This document shows positions 34,137 through 62,504 of a stretch of 64,000 nt of DNA, in pieces; the stretch's first letter is position 1, and every line of letters starts with the position of its first letter. The stretch is from Cyclobacterium sp. SYSU L10401 (GTDB taxonomy: Bacteria; Bacteroidota; Bacteroidia; Cytophagales; Cyclobacteriaceae). The stretch lies in the NCBI RefSeq assembly GCF_010993705.1, contig NZ_WOFO01000002.1, positions 496,001 through 560,000 of the forward strand. The letters run 5' to 3'. A model generated the notes under the pieces. That model was given only the letters and a program-made list of their open reading frames with translations, searched no databases and was not told the DNA's origin. The translations under genes and the position numbers were made by a program.

Positions 34137-34245
34137 TTAAGTGATTGATAACTTGAACGCTTGCCTTTATTTCCTGAAAACATATGAAGGCAAGTTCAGG
34201 CAGGACACCTCTCTCCCCAGAAAGGGTCCTGCCCTTGTTTTATCC
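34137..34245 (+). ncRNA. Candidate antisense RNA in the susC leader (first PUL)
   Basis: A GC-rich hairpin (GGCAGGAC/GTCCTGCC, 34199-34233) followed by CTTGTTTTATCC points in the plus direction, opposite to susC. A Bacteroidetes-like promoter fits upstream: TTG at 34100-34102, 20 bp, TAATATTG at 34123-34130 (7 of 8 to TAnnTTTG). The predicted transcript of about 110 nt would lie wholly antisense to the susC 5' leader. The 60-kb locus has the same arrangement. Existence is inferred. Confidence 0.33.
34199..34233 (+). terminator. Hairpin antisense to susC leader (terminator-like)
   Basis: Stem GGCAGGAC/GTCCTGCC with a 19-base loop and a T-containing tail only on the plus strand. It lies 76 nt upstream of the susC start, between fecR and susC. 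Confidence 0.5.
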
Positions 34246-54917: not shown

Positions 54918-56720
54918 TTAATATCCAGGGTTTTGTTGGAGAGGGGGTTGGGTTCGGTCTATTTCGTGTTGTGGAATGGGCCGAACCAGGTGAATCTCGG
55001 ATAAGGCTCCATTTGCCTTGGTCCAGAAATTGTATTTTTTTGTTCGTTCCAACAACGTTCCCGTCCGTTTGAGATCAAACCAACGGTTGAATTCACCCAT
55101 TAACTCCCTGGCACTTTCGTCCAAAATCATGTCAATGGAAATCGTGGCGGCGGTAGCGCGATAGGATTCGGTTTCCAAAGAACTGAGGATTTCAGGAAAT
55201 TTGGCCTTTTGAGGTTCTACACCTTCCCCTACAGCCCGATCCAAAACGCTATTATAATATACCTCAGCACCTCCCAAGGCTCCTCCGGTAGCTCCTTTTA
55301 CAATGGCTTCGGCTGCTAATAAATATGCTTCAGCAGACCTGAATAGCGCGAAATCAAATGTTCCATGTCCATCTCCATAAGGAATATTGGGTTCCCAGAA
55401 TTTCCACATGGAGGGCCTGAATGCTGTGAGTCTCGAAATGGCCTCTCCGCTGATTATTTGTTCGTGATTCATGACGGCATATTTCTTGGTTCCCCCTTCG
55501 TCAATTCCCTTATCCTCACCATATGCTGGCCTATTCCATGGGGTCCAATACGCAACCGTGTCACCAATATCATAACTTACAGTCAGGCTTGGATCTTCAA
55601 AACTATAAGCATAATCATTAACGGGCTGAAGGGCATAAATCACACGCAAAAAATTATGCGCATAGCGACTATCTACCTGAGGATCAAACATTCTATAAAG
55701 AGCTGGTGTTGGTTCATTCTGGCCCAGGTTTCGGTTATAATCACTAGTCCTACCCCGACTTCCTACCAGTTCCCCATTTCCTGGAAAAATGGAATGGTAG
55801 TAATTTCCAGGTTCTCTATTATTACCCTCCATTGCGTTGGTTAGAACATCATTGTTGTATTGAATGGCAAATACCACTTCACTGTTTCTCGCATCCTGGG
55901 GACCGGAATATTGAGTCAGTGGATTTTCAGAACGAATGGGAAATAGCGTGTTGTATGAGTCCACCAAAGGATAGGCTTCAATAACTTTATCCGCATACTC
56001 CAGGGCTTTGTCAAAATCATCCGGACTTCCACCCAAAGAGTTATTAAAATTCCAGCCACGAGTCAAATAAACTTTTGCTAAAAGAAACTGGGCTGCTCCT
56101 TTGGTTGCCCTGCCATATTCACTGGCCTCTACAGGCAGATCGGCCTCTGCTTCAGTCAGGTCTTTTAAGATCTGGCTGTAAACATTAGCAGCTGATTCTC
56201 TTACTACATTCGTATTGGCGGTGATGGTTTCCTCTAGCGGCATGGGGACATCTCCCCAGGTCTGCACCAGATAAAAATAAGTCAATGCCCGTAGAAATTT
56301 GGCCTCGCCGACCCTTGCAGCTTTTTGGGACGGATTGGCATACGTAATGTCCTTGGCCCGGTTGATGGCTGCATTGGTCCTGCCAATTTGCCGGTAAAAT
56401 ATATCCCATGGTGCGATGAAGGTTTCCGAGGTAATATTTAAGTAGGTATCCAGGGCCGGTCCCTGACCTACGGCTTTTTCCGTCCAAAGGCCATTTTGAA
56501 AAAGGTCAGTTCCTGGCAAGGCAAGTGGATATTGAAGAATAAAATCCCGCAAAAGCGGGTAGCAGGATTTGATTAAATCCTCATAGCCGGCTTCTGTGGT
56601 CACATAAGAATCTGTCGTGATATTTGAGATTGATTCTTCTTTAAGGAAATCCTGGCATCCTGTTCCGCCCAACATCAGCAGAAAAAACAGGATTGCATAG
56701 AAAAGGTTATATTTTTTCAT
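54918..56720 (-). CDS. SusD/RagB-family glycan-binding lipoprotein
   Basis: 600 residues. Lipobox GGTGC (Cys 22). AARVGEAKFLRALTYFYLVQTWGDVPMPLEET, ASEYGRATKGAAQFLLAKVYLTRGWNF, FRSAEAYLLAAEAIVKG, DMILDESARELMGEFNRWFDLKRTGTLLER and RPIPQHEIDRTQ match SusD order. Terminator directly after. It pairs with the SusC 32 bp upstream; no sulfatase or hydrolase gene follows in this operon, unlike the other two. Confidence 0.95.
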   Translation of the reverse strand: MKKYNLFYAILFFLLMLGGTGCQDFLKEESISNITTDSYVTTEAGYEDLIKSCYPLLRDFILQYPLALPGTDLFQNGLWTEKAVGQGPALDTYLNITSETFIAPWDIFYRQIGRTNAAINRAKDITYANPSQKAARVGEAKFLRALTYFYLVQTWGDVPMPLEETITANTNVVRESAANVYSQILKDLTEAEADLPVEASEYGRATKGAAQFLLAKVYLTRGWNFNNSLGGSPDDFDKALEYADKVIEAYPLVDSYNTLFPIRSENPLTQYSGPQDARNSEVVFAIQYNNDVLTNAMEGNNREPGNYYHSIFPGNGELVGSRGRTSDYNRNLGQNEPTPALYRMFDPQVDSRYAHNFLRVIYALQPVNDYAYSFEDPSLTVSYDIGDTVAYWTPWNRPAYGEDKGIDEGGTKKYAVMNHEQIISGEAISRLTAFRPSMWKFWEPNIPYGDGHGTFDFALFRSAEAYLLAAEAIVKGATGGALGGAEVYYNSVLDRAVGEGVEPQKAKFPEILSSLETESYRATAATISIDMILDESARELMGEFNRWFDLKRTGTLLERTKKYNFWTKANGALSEIHLVRPIPQHEIDRTQPPLQQNPGY

Positions 56721-56752: not shown

Positions 56753-59700
56753 TTAAAAAGATGCACTTACCCCAAATTGGAAAATGGAATGGGGAACATC
56801 ATCTTGATAGGTTCCTGAATTAAATTCCGGATCCATCCACATATTTTTTTCCTTTGTGAAAATAAATACGTTGTTTGCCTGACCATACAATCTTAAATTA
56901 CTGAATTTGATGGTGTTGAGTAAACCAGGAGGAAACGTATATCCTAGGGTGATATTTGAAATCCTCCAAAAACTTGCGTCCTTATATTGAATAGCCTCCC
57001 TGAAAGGATTGTTTTGCCATACACCATAATAGTCGTCAGTAGGATTGCTTTCTGTCCAATAATTCAAATTCAACCTATTGTACCGGTTACTACCCAGGTC
57101 CCCCATAGTACCCTGCAACAAGCTATTTCTAAACTGAACCCCTTGGCGGGTATATATAAAAATTGAGAGGTCCCAGTTTTTATAAGTAAACATATTATTA
57201 AATCCAGCCATCCATTTGGGCAATTGATTTCCCAATATCACCCGGTCATCTATTCCCTCGGAAGAGGAAATCAACCCATCATTGTTTTGATCTACCACTT
57301 TTACAGAACCAGGTACTTGTCCATAGGACAAGGCTTCCTCAGCTTCATCCAACTGCCAAATACCGTCAAATTCGTAGTAATAGTTTGACCTTAGGGAATG
57401 CCCGACAAAAAGTCGGTTGGCGATGTCTTCCTGCACAGTGCCTCCATACAACTCTAAAATTTCATTGTGATTGGAAGAGAAATTAACGGTAGTATTCCAC
57501 CTGAAATTTTGGGTTTGAACATTGACTGAATTGATGGTCACTTCAATTCCCCGGTTCAGCAATTTACCAACATTAGAGGTTATCGCACCAAATCCAAGGG
57601 ATGTAGGAATTGCCACATTCTGAATTAAATCATTGGTCTTTTTTGTGTACAATTCGACCTCAGCATTGATCCTATTTTCCATGAACCCCATGTTTACACC
57701 CAAATTAAATTCCTCACTGTTTTCCCACCTCAATTGAGAATTCCCGATATTTCTTGGTGCGTAGCCATAAGCTGGATTGCCATCAAAATCATAAGCGGTC
57801 CTGTTTAAATATGCCTGTGTACTGTAGGGTGCAACCACGTCATTACCTACGCGACCATAACTTAATCTGATTTTCAAATCCGAAAATAAATTCATGTTTT
57901 GGATAAAGGCTTCGTCTCCAATCCTGTAGGCAATGGCTGCAGATGGAAAAAAGGCCCATTGGTTACCTTCTGCTAAAACTGAGGAACCATCATACCTTCC
58001 AGTGAGGGTTAACAGGTACTTCTCGTTAAATATATAATTAAACCTACCCATATAGGACAGAATGGATCTTTCTACCAGATCACTCAACACCCCGTTAATT
58101 TGGGCAGCGGTATTTAATGCATAAAAACTAGAATTGTATGCCAGGTTTTCTACCCGTATCCTGGATGTTTCAAACCTTTCCTGAAGGGCACTCTGTACCG
58201 CCGTGAAATTCAAATCATGTAATCCCCTTTTCAATTTATAATTCAAGATATTGTCCCAGGTATAGGATCCATTAAAGTTAAAGTCGTTGCCGGCGCTGGG
58301 AAGTCTATTCAACCGGCTTTTTGAATCCGCTCCTCTGAATTCGCCTCTCCTGCTATTAAAAACAGAAGCCGACATGGAAGACTTGAATGAAAACCCTTCA
58401 AAAGGTGTCAACTCAACATACGCATTTCCAAGAAAGCTGGAAACCCTTGTTTCATCCTGAAAATTTTTAGCGGCTACCTCTGTCAGGGGATTATTGACCT
58501 GGGTATCTTTGATTCCCATCCAGAACGCGTATCCATCCACATTTTTATCATTGGTTTCAGTGGGGTTACTCAAATCGTCGTAATAGATGGTACCGGTAGG
58601 TCTCGCCCTATAGGCATTCCTTAGTGTCTCAAAAGAACCAGTATTCAGAATACTGTAGGTATAGTAGGTGTTAAACCCTACTTTAACCACCTCGTTTAAT
58701 TTGCTGTCGGCACTTCCTTTTAGGTTAAACCTTTCGAAACCAGTATGGAGTACATTGCCTTTTTCATTCAAATAACCCGCCGAAAAATAATGAGTGGTAT
58801 TCTCATTCCCTCCGGAAAGAGCAACCACATGACTGGTTTGAAGGGAAGGGTCAGTAACCTGATCCACCCAATTAACCGACCTCCCATTTTGCACGTTCTC
58901 CAGTTGTGCCGTTGTCCAAATCACCTGGGCGTTCGGGTTTTCTGCCAGGACCACGTCATTGTAGGCGGTGTAAAATTCTTGTGCATTCATAAGATCAGGC
59001 AAAAAAGCCGGGGCTTTCACCCCTGCGTATCCTTCATACGTAACTTTTGTTTTCCCTTGAACCCCCTTCTTAGTTGTGATAATGATCACTCCGTTGGCAC
59101 CTCTGGCACCGTATATCGCAGAGGAGGAGGCATCTTTTAATACATCCATGGAAGCGATGTCACTGGGATTTAAGGTATTCAGTCTCCCTCCCATGACACC
59201 ATCAATGACAACCAGCGGTTCGTTGCTGAAGCCAATTGATTGCAGCCCCCGTATATCAATGGTGTAATCAGAACCTGGCCGGGAATTGATTTTATTCACA
59301 TTAACACCGGCTACCTGCCCCTGAAGTGCTCTTGCCGCCTGAACCGGGTTTTGCCTGATAATATCTTCCGAATCTATGGAACCTACCGCTCCGGTCAAAT
59401 CACTTTTTTTAACTTCTCCATATCCTACTACTACGACCTCCTCGAGAGCAGATGCATCAGGTTCCAAACTAATGTTTAAACTGGATTGATTGCTAATCGT
59501 GACGTTTTTAGCAACATATCCAATATAAGAAAACACCAAAATGGCTCCTTCGTCGACCGTCAGTGAATAATTTCCGTCTAAATCAGTAACAGTTCCGGAG
59601 CTTGTACCAAGTACCGTAACCGTTGCTCCTGGCAATGGTTCTCCATTTTCATCCGTTACCTTTCCGGAAACCGTGATGTCTTCATATTCCACCAAGTTAA

Positions 59701-60076
59701 TCAGTCCCTCTTTCTCATATTTTTTGACATGAATCGTTTCGTTTACCTGCTTGAAACGTAAGCTGGACTGGGTAGCAATGGAAACCAGCAGGTCGTACAG
59801 GCTTTCGCCCCTGCTTTCCAAAGTTATCAAAGGGCTGTCCCGAATCTCACGGCCGGCAAAAACAAAATTGAAATCCGTAATCTTTTCAAGCTCTTTAAAA
59901 GCTGTTTCTACCTTTACTTCGTTCAAAGAAAGGTATACGCTTACCTCTTCAATACTTTTCACCTGGGCATTGCCATTCCAGGCAAGCAGCAAACTCATGC
60001 TGAGGCATTGTAGGGTAAAAGCCATGGTAAATAATTTGCTCATGTAGATTACATGCTTAAGTAGGTATTTTTTCAT
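56753..60076 (-). CDS. SusC/RagA TonB-dependent transporter with STN domain
   Basis: 1107 residues from the ATG ending at 60076 (MKKYLLKHVIYMSKLF…); the frame is open 63 bp upstream without signal character. STN domain (about 45-125, VYLSLNEVKVETAFKELEKI), carboxypeptidase-like domain (VSGKVTDENGEPLPGATVTV), plug (EEVVVVGYGEVKKSDLTGAV, IDIRGLQSIGFSNEPLVVIDG), barrel ending FQFGVSASF. The STN domain fits the adjoining fecR and sigma genes. Operon: sigma-fecR-susC-susD. Confidence 0.96.
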   Translation of the reverse strand: MKKYLLKHVIYMSKLFTMAFTLQCLSMSLLLAWNGNAQVKSIEEVSVYLSLNEVKVETAFKELEKITDFNFVFAGREIRDSPLITLESRGESLYDLLVSIATQSSLRFKQVNETIHVKKYEKEGLINLVEYEDITVSGKVTDENGEPLPGATVTVLGTSSGTVTDLDGNYSLTVDEGAILVFSYIGYVAKNVTISNQSSLNISLEPDASALEEVVVVGYGEVKKSDLTGAVGSIDSEDIIRQNPVQAARALQGQVAGVNVNKINSRPGSDYTIDIRGLQSIGFSNEPLVVIDGVMGGRLNTLNPSDIASMDVLKDASSSAIYGARGANGVIIITTKKGVQGKTKVTYEGYAGVKAPAFLPDLMNAQEFYTAYNDVVLAENPNAQVIWTTAQLENVQNGRSVNWVDQVTDPSLQTSHVVALSGGNENTTHYFSAGYLNEKGNVLHTGFERFNLKGSADSKLNEVVKVGFNTYYTYSILNTGSFETLRNAYRARPTGTIYYDDLSNPTETNDKNVDGYAFWMGIKDTQVNNPLTEVAAKNFQDETRVSSFLGNAYVELTPFEGFSFKSSMSASVFNSRRGEFRGADSKSRLNRLPSAGNDFNFNGSYTWDNILNYKLKRGLHDLNFTAVQSALQERFETSRIRVENLAYNSSFYALNTAAQINGVLSDLVERSILSYMGRFNYIFNEKYLLTLTGRYDGSSVLAEGNQWAFFPSAAIAYRIGDEAFIQNMNLFSDLKIRLSYGRVGNDVVAPYSTQAYLNRTAYDFDGNPAYGYAPRNIGNSQLRWENSEEFNLGVNMGFMENRINAEVELYTKKTNDLIQNVAIPTSLGFGAITSNVGKLLNRGIEVTINSVNVQTQNFRWNTTVNFSSNHNEILELYGGTVQEDIANRLFVGHSLRSNYYYEFDGIWQLDEAEEALSYGQVPGSVKVVDQNNDGLISSSEGIDDRVILGNQLPKWMAGFNNMFTYKNWDLSIFIYTRQGVQFRNSLLQGTMGDLGSNRYNRLNLNYWTESNPTDDYYGVWQNNPFREAIQYKDASFWRISNITLGYTFPPGLLNTIKFSNLRLYGQANNVFIFTKEKNMWMDPEFNSGTYQDDVPHSIFQFGVSASF

Positions 60077-60195
60077 ATCTTTACAGCGTTTGTTTTGCAT
60101 AAATAAACAGTTTTCGGATGAGGGATGGCCGTCCCGCATTCCGCTTACACTCGGGGACTTACTTGTTGATGCAAGTAGGTCCCCTTTTCTTTTTG
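60045..60195 (+). ncRNA. Candidate antisense RNA across the susC start (third PUL)
   Basis: A perfect hairpin-forming sequence (GGGGACTTACTTG/CAAGTAGGTCCCC, one mismatch, 60153-60184) followed by TTTTCTTTTT reads in the plus direction, opposite to susC. Upstream on the same strand, TTG at 60008-60010, a 21-bp spacer and TAATTTG at 60032-60038 approximate a Bacteroidetes promoter. The transcript, about 150 nt, would cover the susC start codon and leader. Antisense RNAs of this layout (DonS type) are known from Bacteroides PULs. Existence here is inferred. Confidence 0.4.
60153..60184 (+). terminator. Hairpin with U-tract antisense to susC leader
   Basis: 13-bp stem with one mismatch and a six-base loop, then TTTTCTTTTT on the plus strand only. 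It starts 77 nt upstream of the susC ATG, almost the same distance as its counterpart at 34199. Confidence 0.7.
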
Positions 60196-60223
60196 ACTCT
60201 TATTTTTTCTTAATAGGCAGTAC

Positions 60224-61333
60224 TTAGTTAAACACCAGGGTTACCCGGTCTTTGTCGATGGTAAACTCAAAACGGGCCGAATAGCTCAGCCCCTCCAATA
60301 CGTTTTTCAGGGTTTGGTCCTGAAACCGGCCCGAAACTTCCAGATTCGGATGGGGTGAATTGGAAAACCGAATGGAAACACCGTACCAGTTTTCCAACAC
60401 CCGTTTTATCTCCCACATGGGGCTTTGGTCAAAGACAATGGTTTTTTTGGTCCATGCCAGGACCCGGTCCTGATCAAAAATTACCCGTTTCATCTCCTGA
60501 TGATTTAAATCAATTTCCAACCCCTCTCCTTTTTGCAAGTTGACCGGCTGGGAAAGAACCGAGTCCCGCTGAACAAGCACCCTACCCGTAAGAAGCGATA
60601 TATCCAGGGATTTGTTATCGTATGCTTTGATATTAAAGGAGGTACCCAGGGCAGTGGTGGAAACAGGGCCTGTTCTGACAGTGAATGGCCGTTCTGTTTC
60701 TTTTGCTATTTCAAAAAATGCCTCACCCCGCAATTCCACAATGCGCTGATGGGGCTCGAAATTTTTGATATACCGGAGCGAACTTCCCGAGTTTAGAATC
60801 ACCTTGGAACCGTCCTGTAAGGTCAAATTGGATTTTACCCCCGGGGGGGCCACGTGCTCCTCGTAAACCACAGGAATTTCCACGATCTTCGGGACAGGCT
60901 GGGGGAAAAATACATTAACCAGGAACGACAGTGTAAAAGCAACAACCAATATGCCCACCAACCGGTAAAATTGCATTGACCTGTGGTAACCAGTTGACTT
61001 TCTGCTTTCGAAATGCCTTAGGGTACTTGAGGAATCGAGTGGAATGACTTTTTTGTCCTGAATTTCCAACTGCAGTTTATCCACGGCTTGGTCAATGTGA
61101 TTCCAAGTATCCTCTATGCGCCCTTCTTCTACTTCCCTAGCCCGTCTGGACATATTCAGCACCAGTCTCCTGGCCTGCATCATTTCCTTTTGCTTCCTGG
61201 GATTTTCCCTGGTATACCCTTCCCAATACGTTTTGGTAGCCCTGTCAGGGGACAAGACCCATTTTTGGAATTCGGGGTCCAATACAAAATCTTCTGTCGT
61301 ATAATCTCGCTTGCACATAAAATTGGTATTCAT
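60224..61333 (-). CDS. FecR-family anti-sigma/signal transducer
   Basis: 369 residues. N-terminal cytoplasmic part (DPEFQKWVLSPDRATKTYWEGYTRENPRKQKEM), one membrane helix around LVGILVVAFTLSFLVNVFF, FecR domain (HVAPPGVKSNLTLQDGSKVILNSGSSLRYI, GEAFFEIAKETERPFTVRTGPVSTTALGTSFNI) and C-terminal DUF4974 (WEIKRVLENWYGVSI, LKNVLEGLSYSARFEFTID). It transmits the state of the STN-SusC to the sigma factor encoded 571 bp upstream. Confidence 0.95.
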   Translation of the reverse strand: MNTNFMCKRDYTTEDFVLDPEFQKWVLSPDRATKTYWEGYTRENPRKQKEMMQARRLVLNMSRRAREVEEGRIEDTWNHIDQAVDKLQLEIQDKKVIPLDSSSTLRHFESRKSTGYHRSMQFYRLVGILVVAFTLSFLVNVFFPQPVPKIVEIPVVYEEHVAPPGVKSNLTLQDGSKVILNSGSSLRYIKNFEPHQRIVELRGEAFFEIAKETERPFTVRTGPVSTTALGTSFNIKAYDNKSLDISLLTGRVLVQRDSVLSQPVNLQKGEGLEIDLNHQEMKRVIFDQDRVLAWTKKTIVFDQSPMWEIKRVLENWYGVSIRFSNSPHPNLEVSGRFQDQTLKNVLEGLSYSARFEFTIDKDRVTLVFN

Positions 61334-61904: not shown

Positions 61905-62504
61905 TCAAATAAAAAAGAATAACCCTACCAGCATTGAAACCACATACTTTTTCAGACTACTGATGGCTTTCCAGGCAAGTGTATATACCGACCGCAGGTT
62001 GATGCCCATCATTTTTGAAACTTCCTCATAGGAAAACTGCTCAAAATACAGCAACTGTATGGCCTGCTTTTGCCGGAGGGGCAATTTCTCTAGCCCGGCC
62101 GCCAATTTGATTTGAAGGCTTTTTTCCTGCTGCACCCCAATGAGTTCACCCTCCTTGGATTCAAGGGATAATAGATGCGGGCCATCTTCCCCCAGTTCTT
62201 CCCATTTCCATTTGGATCGCTTCTTGCTTTCCCGGTATATTTTATTGGAGAGGGACCTGAAAAGGTACACTTTTACATGATCTGCTTTCGGAAGATTTTG
62301 GTGGTACTTCCACAAATCAATAAAAACTTCCTGAATACAGTCCTGCACAAAATCGGCATCATTCACCAAGGCCAGGCCATACTTGAAAAGTTCATAGGCA
62401 AATAAACGGTACAAGCCTTCCAAACCCTCTCGTTCTCCATTTCGTAACGATAGCCAAAGCTCATTGCGGTCACTAAAGGAAATAGGGTTTTCCTGGTATT
62501 TCAC
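61905..62504 (-). CDS. ECF RNA polymerase sigma factor (FecI-like)
   Basis: 199 residues. The start is GTG at 62504; no in-frame ATG precedes it. Region 2: LRNGEREGLEGLYRLFAYELFKYG, DADFVQDCIQEVFIDLWKYHQNL, HVKVYLFRSLSNKIYRESKKRSK. Region 4: LEKLPLRQKQAIQLLYFEQFSYEEVSKMMGINLRSVYTLAWKAISSLKK. The last ten residues (MLVGLFFFI) are hydrophobic, unusual for a sigma factor. Drives the third PUL together with the fecR downstream. Confidence 0.93.
   Translation of the reverse strand: MKYQENPISFSDRNELWLSLRNGEREGLEGLYRLFAYELFKYGLALVNDADFVQDCIQEVFIDLWKYHQNLPKADHVKVYLFRSLSNKIYRESKKRSKWKWEELGEDGPHLLSLESKEGELIGVQQEKSLQIKLAAGLEKLPLRQKQAIQLLYFEQFSYEEVSKMMGINLRSVYTLAWKAISSLKKYVVSMLVGLFFFI

Follow-up and report, generated by a model that had tools for sequence, protein, structure and literature searches.

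The window, a stretch of 64,000 nucleotides from a Cyclobacterium-like genome, contains a susC-like gene preceded by an inverted repeat whose T tract faces in the direction opposite to the gene. The question raised by this locus is whether the repeat marks the end of a cis-antisense RNA directed against susC, and where such an RNA would begin.

The locus and its hairpin

The minus strand carries the genes for a sigma factor, FecR, SusC and SusD (Table 1), and the FecR shares 90% identity with the C. salsum protein. The PUL thus contains sigma and anti-sigma genes, and the predicted antisense element is directed against the 5' part of a susC homolog. In the ORF list susC starts at 60139, at an in-frame ATG upstream of 60076. 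This longest-ORF start is probably wrong, and the true start is most likely 60076 (M-K-K-Y-L-L), where the orthologs begin as well. According to an earlier note on this DNA no plus-strand gene ends at the hairpin; judged by the ORF list alone this is correct, all listed ORFs longer than 160 aa between 49000 and 64000 being on the minus strand.

The plus-strand gap sequence at 60153-60194 reads GGGGACTTACTTG-TTGATG-CAAGTAGGTCCCC, then TTTTCTTTTT, and has the G+C-rich stem and following T tract of an intrinsic terminator. It is the stem with a U-tract that had been described as opposing susC 77 nt before its ATG, and it was recovered at that distance from the likely ATG (60076) and in that orientation, with 14 pairs. 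Two of these are G.U pairs on the plus strand, which the minus strand reads as A.C mismatches. The hairpin at 60153-60184 heads the list of 13 terminator-like sites found between 57000 and 64000. The segment 60140-60200 folds with -25 kcal/mol (z -5.6), and none of 200 shuffles was equally good. In 12 orthologs 98.2% of the cells of the terminator helix are paired, seven of the 14 pairs have changed on both sides, and the covariation score was matched by none of 500 shuffles. Rfam gave nothing at the curated cut-off for 59400-60800; three matches were all far below it, one over the hairpin being RUF1 with 16.6 bits against a cut-off of 70.

Table 1. Positions and strands of the features discussed, in coordinates of the window.
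Feature	Position	Strand	Remarks
Hairpin in the fecR-susC gap of the second PUL, antisense-facing (GGCAGGAC...GTCCTGCC, then CTTGTTTT)	34199..34233	+	locus L005
susD	54918..56720	-	Pfam SusD families
susC-like TonB-dependent receptor (putative antisense target)	56753..60076	-	Pfam Plug and CarboxypepD_reg domains
TTG-N21-TAATTTG of the earlier note, inside the susC coding sequence	60008..60038	+	present, poorly conserved; judged not to be the promoter
-7-like box TATCTTTA of the predicted antisense promoter, overlapping the susC start codon	60076..60083	+	conservation
Predicted cis-antisense RNA, about 104-106 nt, complementary to the susC 5'UTR	60089..60194	+	5' end predicted
5' hairpin of the predicted antisense RNA	60115..60143	+	11 pairs; covariation in 12 orthologs
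Terminator stem-loop of the predicted antisense RNA	60153..60184	+	14 pairs; fold; covariation
Terminator T tract	60185..60194	+	TTTTCTTTTT after the stem
Mini-ORF motif TGCCTATT-AAG-AAA-AAA-TAA	60200..60219	-	ATT in the window; ATG in orthologs L017 and L019
fecR-type anti-sigma factor	60224..61333	-	Pfam FecR, FecR_C
ECF-type sigma factor	61905..62504	-	Pfam Sigma70_r2, r4, r4_2

Terminators in the fecR-susC gaps and their strand

The survey included 217 loci around FecR matches from the own genome, genus, family, order, class and phylum. They comprised the best FecR_C matches (at first a single one from each genome), the FecR orthologs found in the genus and 60 hand-picked places; the sample is thus non-random, and its 28 genus loci are close relatives. 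Removal of seven duplicates and of L015, a weak match inside susC, left 209 loci, and a further 14 without a downstream ORF, 11 with one that was not SusC-like and 17 with gaps shorter than 25 nt were left out, so that 167 gaps were compared.

A hairpin of -14 kcal/mol or better abutting a T tract and facing antisense to susC was present in 101 of the 167 gaps. Sense-facing terminators at the same cut were found in ten, and the dinucleotide-shuffle expectation was 3.3. With the laxer cut of -10 kcal/mol the numbers were 114 antisense, 23 sense and 27.5 in shuffles. At this cut, antisense terminators occurred in 11/14 gaps of the own genome, 26/28 of the genus, 26/41 of the family, 12/22 of the order and 38/53 of the class, and were nearly absent from the other classes of the phylum (1/9, a small sample from among loci L077-L103). 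These counts come from a folding-based finder, used in place of a first one (score ≥16) that missed bulged hairpins; the first finder gave 89 antisense against six sense terminators among the 167 gaps and agrees on the strand. Also the fecR-susC gap of the second PUL (L005) has an antisense-facing hairpin, contained in a longer helix of -22.3 kcal/mol.

The strand was tested with a stem search that scores G.U and A.C alike. This strand-symmetric search found a stem in 115 of the 167 gaps. When the 115 stems were read on the antisense strand, they included 110 G.U and 23 A.C positions (45 and 8, respectively, in the order and class loci alone). In 80 of the 115 a T tract came after the stem on the antisense strand, compared to two on the sense strand, and the stem was more stable on the antisense strand in 84 and on the sense strand in 23. 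The wobble bias together with the strand of the T tracts therefore indicates that selection most likely acts on a plus-strand RNA.

A start-codon box and the predicted antisense RNA

The promoter consensus of the primary sigma factor of Bacteroidota consists of TTTG at -33 and TAnnTTTG at -7. Scanning of the antisense strand for TAnnTTTG produced a sharp peak at the susC start, with 41 matches in a 20-nt bin and 13 in the next-best bin. The motif of the peak is CATAnnTTT(G/A), of which CAT is the start codon read backwards. CATAnnTTT was present at the first ATG of 87/167 loci compared to 2/187 control ORFs, and the full CATAnnTTTG at 35/167 compared to 1/187, the controls being the first ATGs of 187 long ORFs taken from 400 kb of own-genome sequence. 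When any ATG within the first 30 codons was accepted, CATAnnTTT was found in 95/167 loci. These include the window locus, where the box TATCTTTA sits at the third in-frame ATG and has one mismatch to TAnnTTTG, its last base being A and that of the consensus G. The segment TATCTTTACA is identical in 12/12 orthologs, the stretches of which had been located by the pattern CATAnnTTT.

The window box has no -33 TTG at N18-21. Such a TTG was matched in one of 36 own-genome and genus loci, 5/30 family and order loci and 10/28 class loci. In 113 upstream regions of the own genome (400 kb) TAnnTTTG showed a mild excess on the sense strand (30 vs 23 antisense), and with TTG 18-22 bases before it the numbers were eight and two. 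A promoter scan, which seeks TTGACA/TATAAT, gave no site at the predicted antisense promoter. In one class-level genome (L164, L167 and L173) ACAAAG precedes the CATAnnTTTG box on the antisense strand, so that the sense leader could form a small CAAAG...CTTTG hairpin around the susC start codon.

The box and the terminator tend to occur together. Both were present in 83 of the 167 loci, the box only in 12, the terminator only in 24 and neither in 48. Outside the own-genome and genus loci the corresponding numbers were 49, 9, 20 and 38 (odds ratio about 10; p-value 6e-8, which is optimistic because of kinship, the loci not being independent). In the own genome, where the control covered 30 of 57 SusC matches, the pair was found at 7/9 fecR-linked susC loci and at 0/21 other susC loci; the 21 loci without fecR had the box alone in four cases and the antisense terminator alone in three. 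The pair is also incomplete at some own FecR loci, as three of the 14 lack a terminator of -12 kcal/mol and six lack the box. The second PUL has no CATAnnTTT box at its susC start codons.

Of 63 genomes sampled from other genera of the class, 30 had at least one locus with both elements, and in one class-level genome 13 of 19 loci had both; the layout is thus no special case of Cytophagales. None of the nine genomes from other classes had both at a locus. The comparison of sequences says that the layout is old and tied to FecR-linked susC genes, and the near-absence of antisense terminators from the few gaps of other classes hints that it arose within the class.

The predicted RNA was measured from a start 6 nt past the -7 box up to the T tract, which gives 104 nt at the window locus. 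The segment 60089-60194 folds with -40.5 kcal/mol (z -5.5), and in its 5' hairpin four of the 11 pairs have changes on both sides, with 95.4% of the cells paired in the 12 orthologs. Among the 83 loci with box and terminator the predicted lengths were 60-160 nt in 82 (median 110) and 78-128 nt in 65.

We consider it likely that the site encodes a DonS-type cis-antisense RNA which is transcribed from a start-codon promoter and damps susC. A cis-antisense RNA of DonS-like layout had been proposed in the earlier note, and the comparison supports it by the terminator, the strand-specific wobbles, the covariation, the linked box and, within the own genome, the near-limitation of the pair to fecR-linked susC genes. 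We infer that the RNA is transcribed, where precisely its 5' end lies, the position of the sense promoter, and the repression with its route. RNA polymerase would start on the plus strand at a promoter with its -7 box on the susC start codon, transcribe about 105 nt antisense to the susC 5'UTR and stop at the intrinsic terminator that separates the leader from the end of fecR. Over its whole length the product would be complementary to the susC leader, from just downstream of fecR to about 13 nt short of the AUG, and would pair with the leader but not with the AUG. In the absence of the FecR signal, susC/D would most likely be held down by this pairing, either by blocking of ribosome loading or by exposure of the duplex to RNase. 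The terminator would prevent antisense polymerase from running into the sense promoter and fecR, and mutual exclusion of sense and antisense transcription at the start codon might aid the repression. Several of the results above count against this reading: the lack of a -33 TTG, the final A of the box, the mild sense-strand excess of TAnnTTTG, the own FecR loci that have no box or no terminator, the 27.5 gaps expected from shuffles at the laxer cut, and the box or terminator at some own susC loci without fecR.

The stem, the T tract and the strand bias could be accounted for by a terminator alone, and 24 of the 167 gaps have a terminator without the box. The hairpin would then only stop stray antisense transcription, begun inside susC or further away, from reaching the susC promoter and fecR, and no dedicated RNA would exist. 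This is unlikely, as the start-codon box and the terminator are associated and their spacing varies little (82 of the 83 predicted lengths within 60-160 nt), a second hairpin between the two covaries too, and in the own genome such terminators occur at only three of the 21 susC loci that lack fecR. On the minus strand the inverted repeat can fold too, less well, and could in principle be a 5' stabiliser or attenuator in the leader of the susC mRNA. Such a sense-strand role is highly improbable and was rejected by the wobble test: the mispairs are mostly G.U on the antisense and A.C on the sense strand (110 vs 23), the antisense stem is the stabler one in 84 vs 23 of the 115 gaps, and sense T tracts follow in two.

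The place where the RNA starts separates the preferred reading from that of the earlier note, in which an antisense RNA covers the susC start codon from a promoter TTG-N21-TAATTTG inside susC. The pattern is literally present at 60008-60038, and TTG-N20-22-TAATTTG also occurs in 6/12 orthologs, but it was found in only 1/30 other own-genome and genus loci and in 0/116 family, order and class loci. It sits in conserved coding sequence, and its -7 part, TAATTTG, is one base shorter than TAnnTTTG. A start there is very unlikely, and the site was rejected as a promoter on its poor conservation in the other loci. The search for conservation of the gap in related genomes, proposed in the same note, had a divided outcome: the antisense terminator is conserved (101/167 gaps, with covariation in the 12 orthologs) and the -7 box named there hardly is. 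The RNA predicted from the start-codon box begins about 13 nt upstream of the ATG, and would cover the 5'UTR instead of the start codon.

A mini-ORF, a hairpin loop and known systems

Between fecR and the antisense terminator, 55 of the 167 gaps contain a mini-ORF of the form TGCCTATG-(NNN)0-5-stop. Its spread is patchy: own genome 6/14, genus 24/28, family 7/41, order 1/22, class 17/53 and other classes 0/9. The stops were tested with 48 CC(T/C)ATG sites, 14 near-identical loci having been left out. A stop in frame 0 followed within one codon in 24 and within five codons in 42 of the sites, compared to two and seven within one codon and 17 and 14 within five codons in the other two frames. 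By comparison, 309 further ATGs in these gaps gave 39 and 130, respectively. The bias towards stops in frame 0 and the varying number of codons speak for the TGCCTATG motif being a translated mini-ORF. GCCTATG was also considered as the -10 element of the susC promoter, but was dropped as the main reading since early stops are enriched in frame 0; it may have an additional promoter role. A literature search on mini-ORFs and leader peptides, weakened by unspecific matches, found no paper on this layout outside Bacteroides among the titles and beginnings of abstracts that it returned.

Of 107 antisense hairpins, 29 have the loop GTTRNCGC and three its reverse complement. By group, the loop in either orientation occurred in 2/11 hairpins of the own genome, 19/26 of the genus, 5/23 of the family, 0/11 of the order and 6/32 of the class, three of the last being reversed. 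Hairpins with TGTTRnCGCA are those of L018-L026, L032-L037, L040-L042, L056, L065, L066, L081, L082, L187 and L205, and the reverse complement is in L100, L169 and L178. Neither the loop nor its complement was present in the 69 strong terminators (score ≥18) in 464 kb of the own genome, which include the window hairpin. As the hits are mostly in close genus loci, the loop is suggestive but not general.

It is possible, though doubtful, that an old switch of three parts is common to the FecR-controlled susC leaders of the class Bacteroidia, some lineages having all of it and others only pieces. It would consist of the mini-ORF TGCCTATG-(NNN)0-5-stop just after fecR, of the antisense RNA with its -7 box on the susC start codon and its terminator adjoining the mini-ORF, and in part of the leaders of a hairpin loop (TGTTGnCGCA or its complement) for sense-antisense pairing. 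If this is true, sense and antisense transcription would be mutually exclusive at the start codon, and how open the leader is to the antisense RNA would depend on whether the mini-ORF is translated. The mini-ORF accompanies the antisense layout in some of the leaders.

The landmarks of the layout are fixed: the box is on the start codon, the terminator at the far end of the leader, and the predicted product stops short of the AUG. They make the mechanism testable by small changes in tractable Bacteroidota, and annotation could use them to search for such RNAs without RNA-seq.

CopA/CopT and Hok/Sok are antisense systems with U-turn recognition loops, and UUGR in hairpin loops would fit the U-turn motif of such loops. 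The gaps resemble these systems in the recurrent GTTRNCGC loop, in part with UUGR, in 29/107 antisense hairpins. They differ in that 75 of the 107 hairpins are without the loop, and the window loop TTGATG is no strict match.

The closest known layout is that of the DonS family in Bacteroides, which according to the text available from PMC7366714 consists of cis-antisense RNAs of 78-128 nt encoded against susC homologs. The family was described in Bacteroides fragilis (Cao et al. 2016, as cited in the available parts of PMC7366714 and PMC11697453), and its mechanism is called unknown in the available part of PMC11697453. The window RNA is likewise encoded against the susC homolog of a PUL, and its predicted length of 104-106 nt falls within 78-128 nt, both ends being predicted. 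It differs in belonging to another order, Cytophagales, in being a prediction and in having a promoter without a -33 match; the two are likened by layout, not by sequence.

For B. thetaiotaomicron, the accessible texts report first ten (PMC7366714) and then 32 (PMC10994844) PUL-associated antisense RNAs, found by RNA-seq and some by Northern blot (PMC7366714, PMC10994844). They share with the window RNA the DonS-like orientation to susC homologs and differ in having been seen as RNA, that of the window being a prediction. Their correlations with the PULs are, in the accessible text of PMC10994844, both negative and positive, and the positive pairs count against the repression reading. A literature search on PUL antisense RNAs, judged by titles and the beginnings of abstracts, found none on this layout outside Bacteroides; beyond the papers cited, the literature searches listed PMC5635687, PMC10861873, PMC12857756, PMC7841849, PMC6338047 and PMC5698469. 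The PUL antisense RNAs in the parts of the cited papers available to us are from Bacteroides, and the present comparison extends the layout beyond that genus.
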